Assembly: GCA_022483015.1 (NCBI GenBank)
Contig: JAKVOB010000001.1
Span: 1,450,902-1,514,901, forward strand
DNA length: 64,000 bases
Direction: 5' to 3'
DNA from: Atopobiaceae bacterium
GTDB lineage: Bacteria; Actinomycetota; Coriobacteriia; Coriobacteriales; Atopobiaceae
In this document: positions 25,309 through 34,017 of the stretch, piece after piece
How the letters are laid out: every line of letters begins with the position of its first letter
Numbering within the stretch: the stretch's first letter is position 1
The notes under the pieces: generated by a model
Databases searched by the model: none
Told to the model about the DNA's origin: nothing
Seen by the model: only the letters and a program-made list of their open reading frames with translations
Translations under genes and position numbers: made by a program

Positions 25309-26313
25309 ATGGAGCAGGTCAGGTTCGCCACCATAGGCACCTCTATGATCACGGGGCTCATGATCGATGCCCTGAAGGTCTCGCAGCGAGCTACCTACCT
25401 CGGATCCTTCTCGCGTGATCCCGAGCATGCCCGCGCCTATACGGCCGAGCACGGCGGGGTCCAGCCCTTCTCGTCGCTCGATGCCATCGCGCACTGCCCC
25501 GACGTCGACGCGGTGTATGTCGCGAGTCCCAACGCGCTCCATGCCGCCCAGGCCATCCAGATGGTCGAGGCCGGCAAGCATGTGCTGGTCGAGAAGCCCT
25601 TCGCGTCGAACCGTCGCGAGGCGCTGTCGGTCTTCGAGGCCGCCCGAGCCTCGGGCGTCCACGTGATGGAGGCCATGCGTACCCTCCACGACCCCGCGTT
25701 CCGGGCCGTCAGGGAGGCCCTCCCGCGCCTCGGCACGACCCGCTCGGCCTGCATCCGCTACGGCAAGCGCTCCAGTCGCTATGACGAGTACCTCGCCGGG
25801 CGCCACACCAACATCTTCGATGCCTCCATGGCCACCGGTGCCCTCATGGACCTCGGCGTCTACTGCGTCGAGCCCATGGTCGAGCTCTTCGGCATCCCCA
25901 ACGACATCAGGTGCTTCTCGACCAAGCTCGCCGGCGGCATCGATGCGGCCGGCGGCATCCTGGCAGACTATGACGACCTCGTCTGCGAGCTCGCCTACTC
26001 CAAGATCACCAACGACCTCGTGCCAAGCCAGGTCCAGGGGGAGGCGGCCACGCTCGTCGTGGACCACATGAACGCCCCCACCTCCGCCATCATCACCCGT
26101 CTGGACGGCACCAGCGAGGACGTCTCGCTCGGCGCCGGCTGTGACGGACCATCCCCTTCCGTCATGGCGCACGAGGTCGACGACTTCTGTGCTGCCATTG
26201 CGGGGGAGCTCGACATATTGCATTACCAGAAGGTCACGCTTGCGAGCCTCGCTATCATGGACGAGGCACGCTATCAGTGTGGGATCTCGTTTCCGGCCGA
26301 CGAGGAGGACTGA
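25309..26313 (+). CDS. Gfo/Idh/MocA-family NAD(P)-dependent oxidoreductase
   Basis: The 334-residue protein has an N-terminal Rossmann fold (VRFATIGTSMITGLMIDAL), the family motif HVLVEKPFASNRREAL near residue 100 and a C-terminal alpha/beta substrate domain. The EKP Lys is the usual catalytic residue. The substrate is probably a sugar, polyol or sugar-derived compound and cannot be named. ATG 25309 follows GAGAGGGGAG. Its stop is 4 bases before the GltD-like gene, whose ribosome site lies in the end of this gene, so it probably heads the operon with the hydrogenase. A functional link is not obvious. Confidence 0.88.
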   Translation: MEQVRFATIGTSMITGLMIDALKVSQRATYLGSFSRDPEHARAYTAEHGGVQPFSSLDAIAHCPDVDAVYVASPNALHAAQAIQMVEAGKHVLVEKPFASNRREALSVFEAARASGVHVMEAMRTLHDPAFRAVREALPRLGTTRSACIRYGKRSSRYDEYLAGRHTNIFDASMATGALMDLGVYCVEPMVELFGIPNDIRCFSTKLAGGIDAAGGILADYDDLVCELAYSKITNDLVPSQVQGEAATLVVDHMNAPTSAIITRLDGTSEDVSLGAGCDGPSPSVMAHEVDDFCAAIAGELDILHYQKVTLASLAIMDEARYQCGISFPADEED

Positions 26314-26317
26314 TCTA

Positions 26318-28147
26318 ATGGCACGTCTGCATGTCATGGAGAGAAGCGAAGCGCAGGAGGTGATGGACGGCCTTCACGAGGCGCTCGGGCGCAGGCTCTC
26401 GGTGAGCTCGCTGGCACCGTGCCCCGTGGAGTTCACAGCCGCCTACATCGGGATGTGCGCTACGCAGAGCTGCGGCAAGTGCACGCCCTGTCGCGTCGGC
26501 CTGGGGGTGCTCCAGGACCTGCTCAACGACGTCCTCGAGAACCGCGCCGACGCGCACACGCTCGAGCTCATCGAGCGCACTGCCGAGAGCATCTACCTCT
26601 CGGCAGACTGCGCGATCGGCTACGAGGCCGGCCAGATGGCGCTCACCGCCATCCGCGGCTTCCATGACGACTTCGAGCATCATGTCAAGAACCATGCCTG
26701 CGGCTTCACGCAGAGCCAGCTGGTGCCCTGCGTGTCCGGCTGCCCGGCGGGTGTCGACATACCCGGCTACATCAGCCTGGTGGAGGCCGGCCGCTACACC
26801 GACGCCGTCCGCCTCATCCGGAAGGACAATCCGCTGCCGGTGGTCTGCGGCCTCGTGTGCGAGCACCCCTGCGAGATGCACTGCCGCCGTGGCATGGTCG
26901 ACGATCCCATGAACATCCGCGGGCTCAAGCGCTTTGCCTGCGAGCACATGGAGCATGACTACAAGCCCAACATCCAGGATCCCACCGGCAAGCGCATCGC
27001 CGTGGTGGGCGGCGGCCCCGCCGGCCTCTCGGCGGCCTACTACCTTACCCTCATGGGCCACAAGGTCACGGTCTTCGAGGCACGAAAGCACCTCGGCGGC
27101 ATGCTGCGCTATGGCATCCCCGCCTATCGCCTTCCCCGCGAGGACCTCGACGCCGAGATCCAGTGGATCCTCGACTGCGGCATCGACGTCCAGTTGGAGC
27201 ACCCGGTCGACCCGGACGAGCTCGCCCGCCTGCGTGCCGACTACGACTCCGTCTACTTCGCCATCGGCGCCCACACTGACCACAAGCTCGGCCTCGACGG
27301 TGAGAACGCTGACGGCGTCGTCTCGGCCGTGCAGATGCTGCGTGCCATCGGCGATGGCGACAACCCCGACCTCACCGGCAAGCGTGTCTGCGTCATCGGG
27401 GGCGGCAACGTCGCCATGGACGTCTCGCGCTCGGCCGTCCGTTGTGGCGCCTCCAAGGTCTCGATCCTATACCGTCGACGCATCGCGGACATGACGGCCC
27501 AGGACGCCGAGATCGCCGGCGCGCAGGCCGAGGGCTGCGAGGTCCTCGAGCTCCATGCGCCCCTCTCGATCCAGGTCGACGCCTCGGGCAAGGTCACGGG
27601 CGTCGTCACCCAGCCTCAGATCATCGGCGGCCCCCAGCGTGGGCGTCCGGCTCCGCGTGCTGCCGAGGCCGAGGTCGAGGTCATCCCCTGCGACCGCGTG
27701 ATCGTGGCCGTCGGCCAGGTCATCGACTCGGCCCCGTTCGAGGCTGCGGGCATCCCCTGCAAGCGTGGCAAGGTCGTGACCGACGCCGGAGGTGCCGTGC
27801 CCGGACAGGACGGCCTCTTCTCCGGCGGCGACTGCCAGACCGGTCCGGCCACCGTCATACGTGCCATCAACGCCGGTAAGGTCGCGGCCTCCAACATCGA
27901 CCATCACCTCGGCTTCGAGCATGTGATCACGCTTGACGTCGACCTGCCGCCCGTGCAGTTCAAGGGCAAGACGCTGTGCGCCAGGTGCGAGATGACCGAG
28001 CGCGAGGCCTCCGAGCGCGTCGCTGACTTCGACAACGTCGAGAACGGCCTCACGCCCGAGGAAGCCCACCAGGAGGCGTCGAGGTGCCTGAGGTGCGACC
28101 ACTTCGGGTACGGCGCGTTCAGGGGAGGGAGGATCGAGCAATGGTAG
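26318..28147 (+). CDS. GltD-like FAD/NAD(P) FeS oxidoreductase with NuoF-type 4Fe-4S segment; hydrogenase partner
   Basis: The 609-residue protein opens with a segment like the C-terminus of NuoF/HydB, with CGKCTPCRVG (about 51-60) for a 4Fe-4S cluster. A glutamate-synthase-small-chain-type ferredoxin region follows (CVSGCPAGVDIPGY, VCGLVCEHPCEMHCRR). Two nucleotide-binding folds come next: IAVVGGGPAGLSAAYYL for FAD and VCVIGGGNVAMDVSRSA for NAD(P)H. A C-terminal extension holds CARCEMTE and CLRCDHFG. ATG 26318 has AGGAGG upstream and the stop overlaps an ATG of hydA. It probably moves electrons between NAD(P)H and the hydrogenase. This resembles the glutamate-synthase-linked [FeFe] hydrogenase group; the direction of flow is unknown. 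Confidence 0.85.
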   Translation: MARLHVMERSEAQEVMDGLHEALGRRLSVSSLAPCPVEFTAAYIGMCATQSCGKCTPCRVGLGVLQDLLNDVLENRADAHTLELIERTAESIYLSADCAIGYEAGQMALTAIRGFHDDFEHHVKNHACGFTQSQLVPCVSGCPAGVDIPGYISLVEAGRYTDAVRLIRKDNPLPVVCGLVCEHPCEMHCRRGMVDDPMNIRGLKRFACEHMEHDYKPNIQDPTGKRIAVVGGGPAGLSAAYYLTLMGHKVTVFEARKHLGGMLRYGIPAYRLPREDLDAEIQWILDCGIDVQLEHPVDPDELARLRADYDSVYFAIGAHTDHKLGLDGENADGVVSAVQMLRAIGDGDNPDLTGKRVCVIGGGNVAMDVSRSAVRCGASKVSILYRRRIADMTAQDAEIAGAQAEGCEVLELHAPLSIQVDASGKVTGVVTQPQIIGGPQRGRPAPRAAEAEVEVIPCDRVIVAVGQVIDSAPFEAAGIPCKRGKVVTDAGGAVPGQDGLFSGGDCQTGPATVIRAINAGKVAASNIDHHLGFEHVITLDVDLPPVQFKGKTLCARCEMTEREASERVADFDNVENGLTPEEAHQEASRCLRCDHFGYGAFRGGRIEQW

Positions 28148-28164
28148 ACAAGAAGGAGAGCACC

Positions 28165-29931
28165 ATGGTGACCCTCACCATCGATGGCAAGGACGTCACG
28201 GTGCCGGAGCACACCACGATCCTCGATGCGGCCGTCAAGGCCGGCATCAGGATCCCGACGCTGTGCTACCTGCGCGACCTCAACGAGATCGGCGCCTGCC
28301 GCGTCTGCATCGTCGAGGTCGAGGGCATCGACCAGCTCGTGGCCTCATGCAACAACTACGTGCTCGACGGCATGGTCGTGCACACCAACAGCCCCAAGGT
28401 CCGTGCGGCCAGGAAGACCAACGTCGAGTTCATCCTCTCGCAGCACGACTCCGAGTGCACGAGCTGCGTGCGCTCCGGCAACTGCACGCTCCAGACTCTG
28501 GCCAACGACCTCGGTATCTTCGAGCTCCCGTACAAGAAGCACCTGCCCCACGAGCCGTGGGACCAGTCGTTCCCGCTCATCCGCAACAACGACAAGTGCA
28601 TCAAGTGCCTGCGTTGCATCCAGGTGTGCGAGAAGGTCCAGGCCACGGGCATCTGGGACATCGCCAACCGCGCGAGCCACGCCAACGTCAACGTCGCAGG
28701 CGGCGTGCCCATCGACCAGACCGACTGCGCCCTCTGCGGCCAGTGCATCACGCACTGCCCCACGGGCGCGCTCCGCGAGCGCGACGACACCGACCGCGTC
28801 TTCGACGCGCTGGCTGACCCCGACAAGGTCGTCCTGGTGCAGATCGCCCCGTCCGTGCGTGCCGCCTGGGGCGAGCCCCTCGGCCTCACCCACGAGCAGG
28901 CCACGGTCAAGCGCCTGGTGGCGGCCCTGCGTCCCATGGGCTTCGACTACATCTTCGACACGGACTTCTCGGCCGACCTCACCATCATGGAAGAGGCCAG
29001 CGAGTTCTTGGCCCGCGTGGGCGAGGCTGCCGACGACCCCTCGGTCAAGTTCCCGATGTTCACCTCGTGCTGCCCGGGCTGGGTGCGCTTCGTGAAGTCG
29101 CATCACCCCGAGCTGCTCGACCAGATCTCGACCTCCAAGAGCCCCCAGGGCATGTTCGGCGCCATCGCCAAGAGCTACTACGCCGAGCTCATGGGCATCG
29201 ACCCCCACAAGATCTTCTCGGTGTCCATCATGCCGTGCCTCGCCAAGAAGGCCGAGTGCGACATTCCCGTGCTGAACGACGCCTGCGGAGACCCCGACGT
29301 GGACTGCGTCCTCACCGTGCGCGAGGTCGACCGTATGATCCGCGCCGAGCACGTGGACGTGTGCAACCTCGAGGAGGCCGAGTTCGACAGCCCCCTGGGC
29401 ATCGGTACCGGCGCCGGCGTCATCTTCGGTGCCACCGGCGGCGTCATGGAGGCCGCGCTCAGGAGCGCCTACCACTTCGTCACCGGTGACGACCCCGACC
29501 CCGACGCCTTCTCTGACGTCCGCGGGCTCGACGGCTGGAAGGAGTCCACGTTCGACCTGGCGGGAACCACCCTCCATGTGGCCGTGGCGAGCGGTCTGGG
29601 CAATGCCGAGCGGCTCATCGAGGCCCTCGAGGCCGGCGAGGTCTCCTATGACTTCGTCGAGATCATGGCCTGCCCCGGCGGCTGCGCGGGCGGCGGTGGC
29701 CAGCCCATCCACGACGGCGAGGAGCTCGCCGGCGTCCGTGGCGACGTCCTCTGGGGGCTCGACAAGGTCTCTGACCTTCGCATGAGCTACCAGAACCCCT
29801 CCATCCAGGCCTGCTACAGGGACTTCCTCGACAAGCCCCTCTCGGAGCGTGCCGAGAAGCTCCTGCATACCGACCAGTTCGCCTGGCTCATGCCCGGCGA
29901 GCCCGACCAGCGTGGCAAGGAGGGCGAGTAG
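28165..29931 (+). CDS. hydA: [FeFe] hydrogenase, M3-type catalytic subunit
   Basis: The 588-residue enzyme reversibly reduces protons to H2. From the N-terminus: a [2Fe-2S] domain (CYLRDLNEIGACRVC), a His-Cys3 [4Fe-4S] site (HDSECTSCVRSGNC), two [4Fe-4S] sites (CIKCLRCIQVCEK and CALCGQCITHCPTG), and the H-cluster motifs FTSCCPGW (about 298), MPCLAKKAE (about 356) and MACPGGCAGGGG (about 501). A small-subunit-like C-terminus follows. ATG 28165 has AAGGAGAG upstream. ATG 28141, overlapping the previous stop as ATGGTAG, would add eight residues and is an alternative. No HydE, HydF or HydG maturase is in the window, so these must lie elsewhere. Confidence 0.93.
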   Translation: MVTLTIDGKDVTVPEHTTILDAAVKAGIRIPTLCYLRDLNEIGACRVCIVEVEGIDQLVASCNNYVLDGMVVHTNSPKVRAARKTNVEFILSQHDSECTSCVRSGNCTLQTLANDLGIFELPYKKHLPHEPWDQSFPLIRNNDKCIKCLRCIQVCEKVQATGIWDIANRASHANVNVAGGVPIDQTDCALCGQCITHCPTGALRERDDTDRVFDALADPDKVVLVQIAPSVRAAWGEPLGLTHEQATVKRLVAALRPMGFDYIFDTDFSADLTIMEEASEFLARVGEAADDPSVKFPMFTSCCPGWVRFVKSHHPELLDQISTSKSPQGMFGAIAKSYYAELMGIDPHKIFSVSIMPCLAKKAECDIPVLNDACGDPDVDCVLTVREVDRMIRAEHVDVCNLEEAEFDSPLGIGTGAGVIFGATGGVMEAALRSAYHFVTGDDPDPDAFSDVRGLDGWKESTFDLAGTTLHVAVASGLGNAERLIEALEAGEVSYDFVEIMACPGGCAGGGGQPIHDGEELAGVRGDVLWGLDKVSDLRMSYQNPSIQACYRDFLDKPLSERAEKLLHTDQFAWLMPGEPDQRGKEGE

Positions 29932-29937
29932 CGCCTG

Positions 29938-30984
29938 ATGCGACGTGACCACCCCATCAGAAGGTTCTGCCTCGCCGCCATCGTGAGCTGTCTCGTGGTG
30001 GGCGTCCTGGCCCTTATGGGCTGCGGAGGGTCCTCCTCCGACACGGCGTCCACCACGCAGGCGGCCACCACGGCTGAGGCCTCCACGAACTCCGGCACCA
30101 CGGTGCGCGTGGCCTCGCTCAAGGGGCCCACGTCCGTGGGGCTCGTCTCGTTCATGGAGAAGGCCAAGGCAGGGCAGTGTGCCAACGACTACCAGTTCAC
30201 CATCTCTGGCACGGCCGACGAGATCGTCCCCAAGGTCATCTCTGGTGACGTCGACATCGCGCTCGTCCCTGCCAACGTGGCCTCGGTGCTCTCCAACAAG
30301 ACGGACGGTGACATCTCGATCATCGACATCAACACGCTGGGCGTCCTCTCCGTCGTGACGGGTGACTCGTCGATCAAGGACTTCTCCGACCTCGCGGGGC
30401 ACACCGTCTACATGACGGGCAAGGGTTCCACGCCCGAGTACGTCATGGAGTACCTGCTCGACCAGGCGGGCATCGCCGACCAGGTCACGCTCGAGTTCAA
30501 GAGCGAGGCCACCGAGGTCTCGAGCGCGCTCGCGGCCGACCCCTCGGCCATAGGCGTGCTCCCCGAGCCCTACACCACGGCTGTCACCACCAAGAACTCT
30601 CAGCTCAAGTCCGTCATCAGCCTCACTGACGTCTGGGATGACGTCACGGGTGGCTCGAGCCAGCTCGTCACGGGCGTGACCATCGTGCGCAACGAGTTCC
30701 TGACGGCGCACCCCGACGTGGTCCAGGACTTCATCACGGAGCAGTCTGCCTCGGTCGACGCCGTGAACGCCGACCCTGCGGGCTCCGCCCAGGGCGTGGT
30801 CGACGCGGGCATCGTCGACAGCGTGGAGGTCGCCGAGAAGGCCATCCCCAACTGTCAGCTCGTCTGCATCACCGGCGCCAAGATGTCCAAGGCGCTCGGC
30901 GGCTACTACAACGTGCTCTACTCGGCTGACCCGTCCTCCGTGGGCGGCTCGGTCCCCACCGAGAACATGTACTACCTCGGATAG
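29938..30984 (+). CDS. ABC transporter substrate-binding lipoprotein, SsuA/THI5-like
   Basis: The 348-residue secreted protein has a signal peptide with lipobox LMGC (Cys near residue 29), a Ser/Thr/Ala-rich linker and a two-lobed binding domain. Motifs such as VRVASLKGPTSVGLVSFM, VDIALVPANVASVL and LAGHTVYMTGKGSTPEYVM match the NMT1/THI5, nitrate/sulfonate/taurine binding superfamily. The ligand is unknown; thiamine precursors, sulfonates and related small molecules are transported by relatives. It follows hydA by 6 bases and precedes the fused permease-ATPase by one base, so the pair forms one transporter. Confidence 0.87.
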   Translation: MRRDHPIRRFCLAAIVSCLVVGVLALMGCGGSSSDTASTTQAATTAEASTNSGTTVRVASLKGPTSVGLVSFMEKAKAGQCANDYQFTISGTADEIVPKVISGDVDIALVPANVASVLSNKTDGDISIIDINTLGVLSVVTGDSSIKDFSDLAGHTVYMTGKGSTPEYVMEYLLDQAGIADQVTLEFKSEATEVSSALAADPSAIGVLPEPYTTAVTTKNSQLKSVISLTDVWDDVTGGSSQLVTGVTIVRNEFLTAHPDVVQDFITEQSASVDAVNADPAGSAQGVVDAGIVDSVEVAEKAIPNCQLVCITGAKMSKALGGYYNVLYSADPSSVGGSVPTENMYYLG

Positions 30985-30985
30985 C

Positions 30986-32431
30986 ATGGCATCCGAAACA
31001 CAAGGTGGCGTGACACCAGGCGGGGACGTGCCAAGGCGCGCCCCCGCTCGTGCCATCGCGCGCAAGGTCGGTGTCGTCGCCTTCTGGCTCGTGGTGTGGG
31101 AGGCGGCATCGCTCGTGGTGGGATCTCCGCTCATCCTGGCCGGACCCCTTGACACGGCGGTCGCGCTCGGCGGCATCCTCACGGGCGGTCGGCTCCTGGG
31201 TGTGGTGGGCTTCTCGTTCGTGCGCATCGTGGGCGGCTTCCTTGTCGCCTTCGTAGGTGGGCTCCTGCTCGGGGCCCTCTCGGCACGTCATGACCTCCTC
31301 CGCGAGCTCCTGAGCCCCCTCATGTCGATGCTCAAGTCCACGCCGGTCGTGTGTCTGGTGGTACTTCTCCTCATCTGGTTCGGGTCGGCCAACGTGTCGG
31401 CCGTGGCGGTCGCCCTCGTGGTGCTGCCTGCCATCTGGTTCACGGTGGTCGAGGCCGTTGGCCACCTCGACAGGGACGAGGCGGACATGCTCGACGTCTT
31501 CCACGTGCACGGCCTACGTCGTCTTGCCGCCTCGTCGTGGCGCCAGATCCTGCCCTACCTGGACTCGATCTGCCGGACGGTCGTCGGCATGAGCTGGAAG
31601 GCCGGTGTTGCGGCCGAGCTCATCGGCATTCCCATGGGCAGCATGGGCGAGAGGATCTACCAGTCCAAGCTCCTGCTCGAGACGGCCGACCTCTTCGCCT
31701 GGACGGCCGTCATCATCGCGCTGGCCTTCCTCTGCGAGAAGGGCTTCCTGTGGCTGCTGCGAAGGTCCGGCTCCTGGGCGCTCGCCTGGTCGGTGCGCCC
31801 CTCAACCCACGTCGTGCATCCGTCCTGTGCGTCAGAGTCCCTTGCCGCGCGTGATGCCGACCTGGGACATGACGGGGTCGGCGTCCTGCGCGGCCTCACG
31901 AGGGAGTTCCCGCGTGGCAGCAGGACATGCCTGCTCGACGTCTCCGGCGCCGGCAAGTCCACGCTGCTGAGGGCACTTGCGGGCGTCGACGAACCGATTG
32001 CGGGGACCGTGGAGGTACCCGGGCGTACGGGGCTCTCGTTCCAGGGGACCTGCCTCATCGACGAGCTCTCCGCACGGGGAAACGTCGCGCTCGTGGCAGG
32101 TCGTGAGGTCTCGGCGGCTGACATCGCGGCGCTGCTCGGCGAGCTGCTCCCGGCGGAGGTGCTGGACCGGCCGGTGAGGGAGCTCTCGGGAGGTCAGCGG
32201 CAGCGCGTGGAGCTGGTACGTGCGATGGCCTGGCCTTCCTCGGCGGTGCTTCTCGACGAGCCCTTCGCTGGCCTTGATGTCGATATGCACTGGCGGGCGG
32301 CAGGGTTCGTGGACACCCATCTTGGCGGACGCACCCTTGTGGTGGCGACCCATGACAACGGCGATGCCATGGCGCTCAGGGCGCGGGTGGCGGTGCCGCT
32401 TGCGCCGGGCGCGCGCCCGGGAATCAAGTGA
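30986..32431 (+). CDS. Fused ABC transporter permease and ATPase (SsuC-SsuB-like)
   Basis: The 481-residue protein joins an SsuC/TauC-type permease (about 1-270, several helices; coupling-loop region VFHVHGLRRLAASSWRQILP) to a short ATPase (about 285-481). The ATPase has Walker A near 318-326 reading DVSGAGKST, the signature LSGGQRQRVELVRAM, Walker B SAVLLDEPFAGLD and switch ATHDN. The first Gly of the Walker A consensus is Asp. The ATPase is about 50 residues shorter than usual. ATG 30986 follows the lipoprotein stop directly. Usually these subunits are separate, so this fusion would bring two permease and two ATPase halves as a simple homodimer. Confidence 0.87.
   Translation: MASETQGGVTPGGDVPRRAPARAIARKVGVVAFWLVVWEAASLVVGSPLILAGPLDTAVALGGILTGGRLLGVVGFSFVRIVGGFLVAFVGGLLLGALSARHDLLRELLSPLMSMLKSTPVVCLVVLLLIWFGSANVSAVAVALVVLPAIWFTVVEAVGHLDRDEADMLDVFHVHGLRRLAASSWRQILPYLDSICRTVVGMSWKAGVAAELIGIPMGSMGERIYQSKLLLETADLFAWTAVIIALAFLCEKGFLWLLRRSGSWALAWSVRPSTHVVHPSCASESLAARDADLGHDGVGVLRGLTREFPRGSRTCLLDVSGAGKSTLLRALAGVDEPIAGTVEVPGRTGLSFQGTCLIDELSARGNVALVAGREVSAADIAALLGELLPAEVLDRPVRELSGGQRQRVELVRAMAWPSSAVLLDEPFAGLDVDMHWRAAGFVDTHLGGRTLVVATHDNGDAMALRARVAVPLAPGARPGIK
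32405..32420. terminator. 16-bp perfect palindrome at the end of the ABC gene
   Basis: CCGGGCGCGCGCCCGG lies in the last codons of the fused ABC gene, 18 bases before the stop of the convergent gene. With only 6 bases between the two stop codons there is no room for another terminator, so it may end transcription from both sides. Confidence 0.4.
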
Positions 32432-32437
32432 CCCAGG

Positions 32438-33730
32438 CTAGGCGTGGCGCGCCAGCAGCTCGACCTGCTCGGCGGTGACGTCGAGGACCTGCTGGGCCAC
32501 CTCGGCGGCCTCGTCGGAGGCATCCATGCAGGCGGTGAGGGTGCAGGTGCCGCCGAACGTGTGGGCGCTCAGCTGGAAGGTGGGCCATGGCCTGGTCGCC
32601 GTGGCCACCAGCATATCGGTGACCTTGGTCTGGCCGAAGTCGACCTGGGCCTCGCGGGTCACGCCGAGGTTGGTGTATGAGAGGGCGTCAGGCATGCCGG
32701 CGTTCTCGAAGATGCCGCGCATGGCGTCGTAGGGCAGCGCTTTGACGGCCTCGAGCATCAGTGGGTCCCTGAGGCCGGCATCGCTGGCCTTCGCCACGCG
32801 CATCTGGCGCGAGACAGCGGCGATGGTGGCCATGAGGGGTTCGCGCACATAGGAGCTCACGCGGCACGAGAGCGACCCGGTGAGGTTACAGACGCCGCAG
32901 GTCTGGCCGGCCCGCGCGTAGCGCCTGAGGTCGATGGGGCAGGGGAGTACGACTGAGTCAGAGCCCACCGCCGAGCACAACGTGCGGCCGTATGCCGCAA
33001 GCAGGAGGTCGTTCGCGGTGGCACCGACAGCGGCCACCGTGGCACATGCTTGCTCGAAGTCGGCCGCGGCTATGTCCCTGCGGGCGAGTCTGGGGCAGGC
33101 AGACCCTGAGGCGGCGGGCATGACGAGGTCAGGGTCGGCCTTCGGGGCGCGAGGGTCATGTGCGAGGACGCGGGCCAGATGCGTCGCCGGGATGTTGCGG
33201 GTGATCTGCAGGAGGCCTCGCGTGGCGGGGACGGTGAGGCTGGGCGCGGCGTCGGATCCGGTGTCCTCGCCGGTCGCGCGCGCATAGGCTGACGACAGCA
33301 GGGAGAGCACCTGGCGGAAGCCCCCGAAGTCACAGAGCATATGATGGGCGCAGACGACCAGCGTGTCCGGGCCCGTCGGACGACGGACCACGGTGACGCG
33401 AAGCTGCGGGGCCACCATCGGGTTGAGGTGTGCGAGGAGCGCCGTGCGGACGGTCTTGTCGTAGGCATCGTCGTCGCAGGTCAGGAGTCGGAGGATGCGC
33501 ACCGAGGCATCGTCGAATGTGCGCCAGCAGTTGGCGCGCGCATCGAAGGCACCCGCCGCGGCGGGGACGGCCGTGACGACGTGGGCGCAGGCCTCCTTGA
33601 GGGCCGCGAGGTTGAGGCGCCCGTCCAGGGCGAGCGCGCATCGCACGAGGGCCTCCTGGCGCTCGTCGAAGTAGCGCTGGATGGTGTCGAGCGGCTGAAG
33701 GGGGACGATGGCGCCCTGGTCCTGGGTCAT
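32438..33730 (-). CDS. Condensation-domain-like acyltransferase
   Basis: The 430-residue protein looks like a stand-alone condensation/CAT-superfamily acyltransferase. The active-site motif reads VVCAHHMLCDFGGFRQVL near 120, matching HHxxxD with G displaced, and a later ATANDLLLAAYGRTL is typical of the second half of the fold. Relatives form ester or amide bonds from acyl-CoA or carrier-bound acyl groups. No carrier protein or NRPS gene is adjacent. ATG 33730 follows GAGGGAAGG. It is convergent with the ABC gene and divergent from the cyclophilin. The 287-base gap upstream (33731-34017) has no gene; a reverse -10-like TATGGT lies at 33774-33779. Confidence 0.7.
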   Translation of the reverse strand: MTQDQGAIVPLQPLDTIQRYFDERQEALVRCALALDGRLNLAALKEACAHVVTAVPAAAGAFDARANCWRTFDDASVRILRLLTCDDDAYDKTVRTALLAHLNPMVAPQLRVTVVRRPTGPDTLVVCAHHMLCDFGGFRQVLSLLSSAYARATGEDTGSDAAPSLTVPATRGLLQITRNIPATHLARVLAHDPRAPKADPDLVMPAASGSACPRLARRDIAAADFEQACATVAAVGATANDLLLAAYGRTLCSAVGSDSVVLPCPIDLRRYARAGQTCGVCNLTGSLSCRVSSYVREPLMATIAAVSRQMRVAKASDAGLRDPLMLEAVKALPYDAMRGIFENAGMPDALSYTNLGVTREAQVDFGQTKVTDMLVATATRPWPTFQLSAHTFGGTCTLTACMDASDEAAEVAQQVLDVTAEQVELLARHA

Positions 33731-34017
33731 GTCGATGCCTTCCCTCTGGTGGAGCGGGTCACGTTCCTGAAGCACCATACCCCATGTCGATGGACGGGTG
33801 ATGTGGCGGAGGTGCCGCGTCGATCCGGGGCGACGCCGTGTGCGATGCGGGCTGGCGGCGGTGACATGCCTGCACGGTCGGTGGTGCTCGCCAGGCCAGC
33901 CCGATGTCGTTCGTGGGCGCCTTGCGACCCCTGCCTCCTGGCAGCGGGTGGCCGCCTGCGTCGTGCTAGGCTATGACCTGCTACTCAACCCTGTTTCTCT
34001 CGCGAAGGGATCTTCCC

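Follow-up and report, generated by a model that had tools for sequence, protein, structure and literature searches.

A single gene in the 64,000-nucleotide stretch of Atopobiaceae DNA analyzed here (the window) encodes both the permease and the ATPase of an ABC importer, and its Walker A motif begins with an Asp. The locus raises the question of whether such a fusion is a genuine and working transporter and, if so, what it serves. The reading that, taken as a whole, we consider probable is that the protein works as a fused homodimer, imports a small solute of the anion type and is linked to fermentation based on hydrogenase. The genes and sites concerned are as follows.

25309-26313 (+), Gfo/Idh/MocA oxidoreductase, start inferred, 4 bases ahead of the hydB-like gene
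26318-28147 (+), electron-transfer subunit with a NuoF C-terminal Fe-S domain and a GltD-like NAD(P) oxidoreductase, overlapping hydA by 7 bases
28141-29931 (+), [FeFe] hydrogenase catalytic subunit HydA, group A (A6-like), 6 bases ahead of the binding protein gene
29938-30984 (+), substrate-binding lipoprotein with a nitrate/sulfonate/taurine-type fold, 1 base ahead of the fused gene
30986-32431 (+), fused importer subunit of 481 residues, permease (TMD) plus ABC ATPase (NBD), from ORF, Pfam and AlphaFold analysis
31043-31810 (+), permease domain, approximately residues 20-275, BPD_transp_1, with NrtB and CmpB as solved sequence relatives
31835-32410 (+), ATPase domain, residues 284-475, aligning to MalK 2-213
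31937-31963 (+), Walker A DVSGAGKST, residues 318-326, Asp for the first Gly
32042-32044 (+), Q-loop Gln353
32183-32197 (+), signature LSGGQ, residues 400-404
32249-32263 (+), Walker B LLDEP with Glu425 (DE, residues 424-425)
32351-32353 (+), H-loop His456

The permease and ATPase are not encoded separately in the window but lie in a single intact frame, in agreement with the preliminary description. Both domains scored above their Pfam cut-offs, namely BPD_transp_1 (PF00528; residues 92-249, 45.4 bits versus 26.4), which marks a type I importer permease, and ABC_tran (PF00005; residues 302-428, 69.5 bits versus 25), which marks an ABC ATPase. Between positions 31701 and 32002, both other forward frames contain stops and that of the fused gene contains none; third-position GC falls from 0.86 in the permease to 0.64 in the 25-codon linker and returns to 0.82 in the ATPase. 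Together, the open frame and the GC profile give no hint of a frame break within the domains. The Asp in place of the first Gly had been noted before, together with the retained Lys and Ser, signature motif and Walker B, and all of these were read at the positions given above; the Q-loop and H-loop are also present, and the first Gly of GxxGxGK[ST] is the only motif position that departs. The DNA pattern of this Walker A occurs once in the window, which confirms its position only, because the search pattern was copied from the gene itself. The ATPase had also been called short. It does comprise only ~190 residues, but its model (pLDDT 87.5 for the fused protein) aligns to MalK 2-213 (192 residues aligned, rmsd 2.0 Å, Z 23.6), indicating a compact rather than a truncated domain.

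The initial assignment as SsuBC-type proved too specific. The permease obtained 28.6 bits with SsuC (cut-off 347), 27.4 bits with TauC (cut-off 342) and 42.4 bits with NtrB (cut-off 209.05), and its best curated match, SaoP (NF040733), gave 52.5 bits at a cut-off of 295. The binding protein reached 49.3 bits with the SsuA family model TIGR01728, far below the cut-off of 163.5, although its predicted fold (pLDDT 91.2) resembles those of SsuA (Z 26.4) and TauA (Z 25.7). The window proteins combine this similar fold and a weakly similar permease with scores far under the curated cut-offs for SsuABC, a transporter of aliphatic sulfonates, and TauABC, the genes of which are separate. NrtB and CmpB were the only solved sequence matches of the permease up to an E value of 1 (8w9m_B, 6e-9; 9u9z_A, 1.4e-5), and the likeness to NrtBCD and CmpBCD extends to the folds of the ATPase (Z 21-22) and the binding protein (Z 23-26). 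However, these systems have separate permease and ATPase chains, and their chain C contains a regulatory binding-protein-like domain, whereas the window protein is one chain without such a domain. The closest structural neighbor of the binding protein is 3hn0 (BDI_1369 of Parabacteroides distasonis; Z 32.0), followed by 3un6, PqqT, SsuA, TauA, CmpA and NrtA at about Z 25-28. It is also the only solved sequence relative at an E value of 0.01 (1.6e-10), but shares just 20% identity; its source genus contains two loci with a separately fused importer (L100 and L106). In the whole-chain fold search, the half-size exporters IrtB and MsbA topped the Foldseek list because they, too, carry TMD and NBD in one chain. 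With an rmsd near 15 Å or more in the exporter rows shown, a TMD that is importer-type by sequence and an adjoining binding protein, an exporter identity was set aside as a one-chain bias. A second fold comparison covered mainly residues 282-476, so that the permease fold is drawn from sequence and the model.

Of the 37 loci fetched, 34 have a binding protein gene no more than 4 kb upstream on the same strand; none was found adjoining the fused importers of L034 and L046, and in L052 it is on the opposite strand. In the window protein, Cys29 of a lipobox read by eye is conserved. Conserved positions cluster in GPT, PAN and TP stretches where helices of the model begin and include few charged residues, a pattern that would fit a small anion or a neutral solute held by backbone groups. 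Riboswitches were considered as a further clue to the substrate and dropped. There was no Rfam match in the window between 24000 and 34000. A search of 31 loci (22 from the 48 distant ones and 9 from the 37 fetched relatives) gave no riboswitch beside the binding protein and a single one elsewhere, of the lysine type, ~5 kb downstream of the importer in L089.

The preliminary description did not mention that the fused gene is the last gene of an [FeFe]-hydrogenase operon. Its order is Gfo/Idh/MocA oxidoreductase, NuoF-GltD-like subunit, HydA, binding lipoprotein and fused importer, and the successive genes are separated by 4, -7, 6 and 1 bases. The start of the electron-transfer subunit was inferred from a Shine-Dalgarno-like stretch, and its domains were scanned on the longer frame 26141-28147. 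HydA exceeded the cut-off of the group A model TIGR02512 (472.1 versus 405.95 bits) and fell just below that of the A6 model NF040763 (753.3 versus 765 bits). No promoter-like site was found between 24890 and 32700, where 0.6 were expected by chance.

The neighborhoods of its relatives bear on our question of what the importer serves. Of 40 related genomes, 15 had a hydrogenase domain (PF02906) within 10 kb of the importer, where 0.68 were expected; among 48 distant loci, 15 contained one, against 0.55 expected. The corresponding tail values, near 1e-17 and 1e-18, assume independence and ignore shared descent and are not to be taken literally. At the genome level, among the matches listed for 60 related genomes, PF02906 was detected in 39 of 41 genomes with the importer and in 8 of 19 without it (Fisher p 1.2e-5). 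Here, the importer was counted as present where the permease matched or, in G029 and G034, where a fragment lay at a contig end, and the 41 genomes include three distant split relatives (G035, G047 and G057; permease 27-34% identical). In the 40-genome test, G034 was left out and G041 was taken from a contig-end fragment. The 48 distant loci remained from 80 after the removal of 25 without a permease match, three in which no ATPase was detected (L080, L098, L099) and four that were distant or rearranged (L112, L114, L116, L146).

The hydrogenases next to these importers are of several kinds, including A6 enzymes above the cut-off (L107, L117), B1 enzymes above the cut-off (L070, L105, L145) and hydrogenase-like proteins that carry MCP, PAS or FeS domains (L087, L094, L091, L103). 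Cellulomonas (L088, L093) and Christensenella (L107) likewise have the genes in the order hydrogenase, binding protein, permease, ATPase; Bacteroides (L117) does so too, but there a regulator gene intervenes. In 9 of the 51 distant loci that were clustered, the binding protein gene is directly preceded by that of a Crp/Fnr-like regulator (e.g., L117:4365-4985 and L092:4201-4878), the L092 protein being the one covered by a Pfam scan. In Cellulomonas (L088:1793-4987, L093:1793-4987) and a Micrococcales MAG (L085:1830-4988), the GltD-like subunit and HydA form one ORF of ~1060 residues, which in L088 matched the PRK12814 model at 9-641 and the A6 model at 576-1050.

The strongest competing explanation is that of an ordinary nitrate/sulfonate/taurine-type importer with a neutral fusion, for which the nearby hydrogenase is an inherited neighborhood without any functional tie. 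We regard this as a serious, albeit rather unlikely, alternative. It draws on the fact that for most importers no adjoining hydrogenase was observed (25 of the 40 related genomes and 33 of the 48 distant loci, some contigs ending there) and that six importer-bearing genomes, G037 and G053 among the related and four of the 48 distant ones, have no PF02906. Genes for PEPCK (10), AckA (7) and Pta (6) also recur in the 37 fetched stretches, and PEPCK-cluster genes lie near L077 and L081, both from genomes without PF02906. These observations together make functional coupling a proposal rather than a result. Mere inheritance, however, accounts poorly for unlike hydrogenases (group A, monomeric B1 and MCP/PAS forms) recurring far above the expected number at loci that we take to span Actinomycetota, Bacillota, Bacteroidota and Spirochaetota.

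According to the preferred reading, that of the hydrogenase-tied homodimeric importer, the window gene would encode a half-transporter in which a type I importer permease is joined to its own ATPase. The complete translocator would consist of two such chains, receive its substrate from the lipoprotein encoded separately upstream and take up a small anion-type solute of the nitrate/sulfonate/bicarbonate-like class. The importer would be expressed together with the genes of [FeFe]-hydrogenase-based fermentation and be coupled to it in function. A bolder version, which we put forward as speculation and rather doubt, is an importer dedicated to [FeFe] hydrogenases, lying beside hydrogenases of several groups in what appear to be four phyla, that supplies a precursor, ligand or electron-accepting solute required by hydrogenase-based metabolism, that was repeatedly condensed to a TMD-ATPase chain and that in one lineage acquired an Asp-headed P-loop. 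A type I importer with one kind of chain for the whole translocator would offer a simple system for studying the coupling of permease and motor and, if the hydrogenase link is functional, would point to a new nutrient or cofactor input for the hydrogen metabolism of anaerobes.

The membership of the importer in a hydrogenase operon and the enrichment of hydrogenases near it go beyond the preliminary description. Among the titles and abstract openings listed in a literature search, with subscription journals mostly outside its reach, none dealt with a hydrogenase-linked importer of this family or with this fusion besides an article that reports COG0715-COG0600-COG1116 importers and Fe-hydrogenase genes near cooS (PMC11338639). 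A link to CO dehydrogenase was dropped for this family, as CooS (TIGR01702) scored above its threshold in no more than 2 of the 48 distant and 3 of the 60 related genomes; in G007 it was just below.

To place the fusion, we used a tree of 89 permease-plus-ATPase systems. Permease and ATPase are split in 53 of them, which makes separate genes the commoner arrangement, in line with the earlier remark that the two are normally separate in this class. The window gene and 28 further fused rows form one clade (SH-aLRT 97), the named members of which are a Coriobacteriaceae MAG and Collinsella (L068, L069); the tree is a quick one, with some long branches and long-branch warnings (L112 with L114). 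Over the whole tree at least six changes between the fused and split states are required, and the fusions in L071, L077/L081, L142, L143 and L100/L106, which according to their record titles belong to Lachnospiraceae, Clostridiales and Parabacteroides, accordingly appear to be separate events. The fusion in the window lineage probably arose once.

The Asp at the head of the Walker A motif is real, but it is no oddity of a single gene, as its presentation as an alteration had suggested. In the 36 fused systems, the first Walker A residue is G (14), D (13), A (7) or Q (2), whereas in the 53 split systems it is G (46), A (6) or S (1) and never Asp. All 13 Asp rows fall inside the 29-row clade, in which Asp is the commonest residue without reaching a majority (13/29) and at least four changes of the residue took place. 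In the closest fusions, Asp was found in 34 of 49 loci, a count that covers 49 of 51 best matches to the window (two were too short) and leans toward close relatives; L025 has a gap at this position in that count and Gly in another alignment. Being frequent in the fusion clade and absent from 53 split systems, Asp is a lineage trait, varying within the clade, and not a lesion. It is probably a tolerated state, although it could lower the affinity for ATP.

This last possibility leads to a second alternative, a degenerate or regulatory ATPase in which Asp weakens nucleotide binding and the protein senses rather than pumps. The restriction of Asp to fused systems agrees with it, as do a fused relative (L053) without the H-loop His and the LSYGQ of L100/L106. 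Against this, K324, Q353, SGG and DE are invariant across 22 aligned fusions, and the first Walker A residue switches among A, G, Q and D within the clade, so that we judge a sensor to be improbable. From the retention of the catalytic residues, ATP hydrolysis would be expected for the window protein, and its P-loop may serve as a natural test of the role of the first Walker A residue. L053 combines the missing His with a Gln in Walker A, and its ATPase is possibly failing. The LSYGQ that replaces LSGGQ in L100 and L106 belongs to the separately fused importers of Parabacteroides.

The fusion itself is genuine and lineage-wide, within a known class of transporters. By hand count among the matches listed, 51 of 140 family genomes contain it at full length without an internal stop, several of them single-contig assemblies; a match at an E value of 1e-40 or better was present in 96 of 140. 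Three further full-length rows (G012, G194, G134) each have one stop inside the match. The sole other genome of the genus carries the fusion too, at 57% identity. The preliminary description had named separate genes in close relatives, together with read evidence for a missing stop codon or indel, as the observation that would speak against a fusion, but the best-scoring relatives are fused as well. Split relatives with nearly abutting genes do occur, but a merger of two genes through a missing stop or an indel in the assembly or annotation is almost certainly wrong, since independent genomes share the fusion and the fused genes form one phylogenetic clade.

The split relatives suggest how the fusion may have come about. 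The 37 further stretches fetched, from 36 genomes, comprised 26 fused and 11 split loci. Nine of the 11 split loci show a 4-bp overlap between a possible ATPase start and the permease stop; in the other two (L064, L066), such a start lies 2 and 7 bases past the stop. Loss of such an overlapping junction between two ancestral genes would be a simple route to the fusion and is probably the one taken in the window lineage. One genome (G127; C1 612280 and 1041097) contains, along with the fused importer, another match that covers the permease alone and has a frame of its own. In the window, the operon is followed by a convergent gene (32438-33778, minus strand), the product of which weakly resembles a peptide synthetase model and has no Pfam match; a relative of this product, with 48% identity, is encoded at the corresponding position of the genus's other genome.
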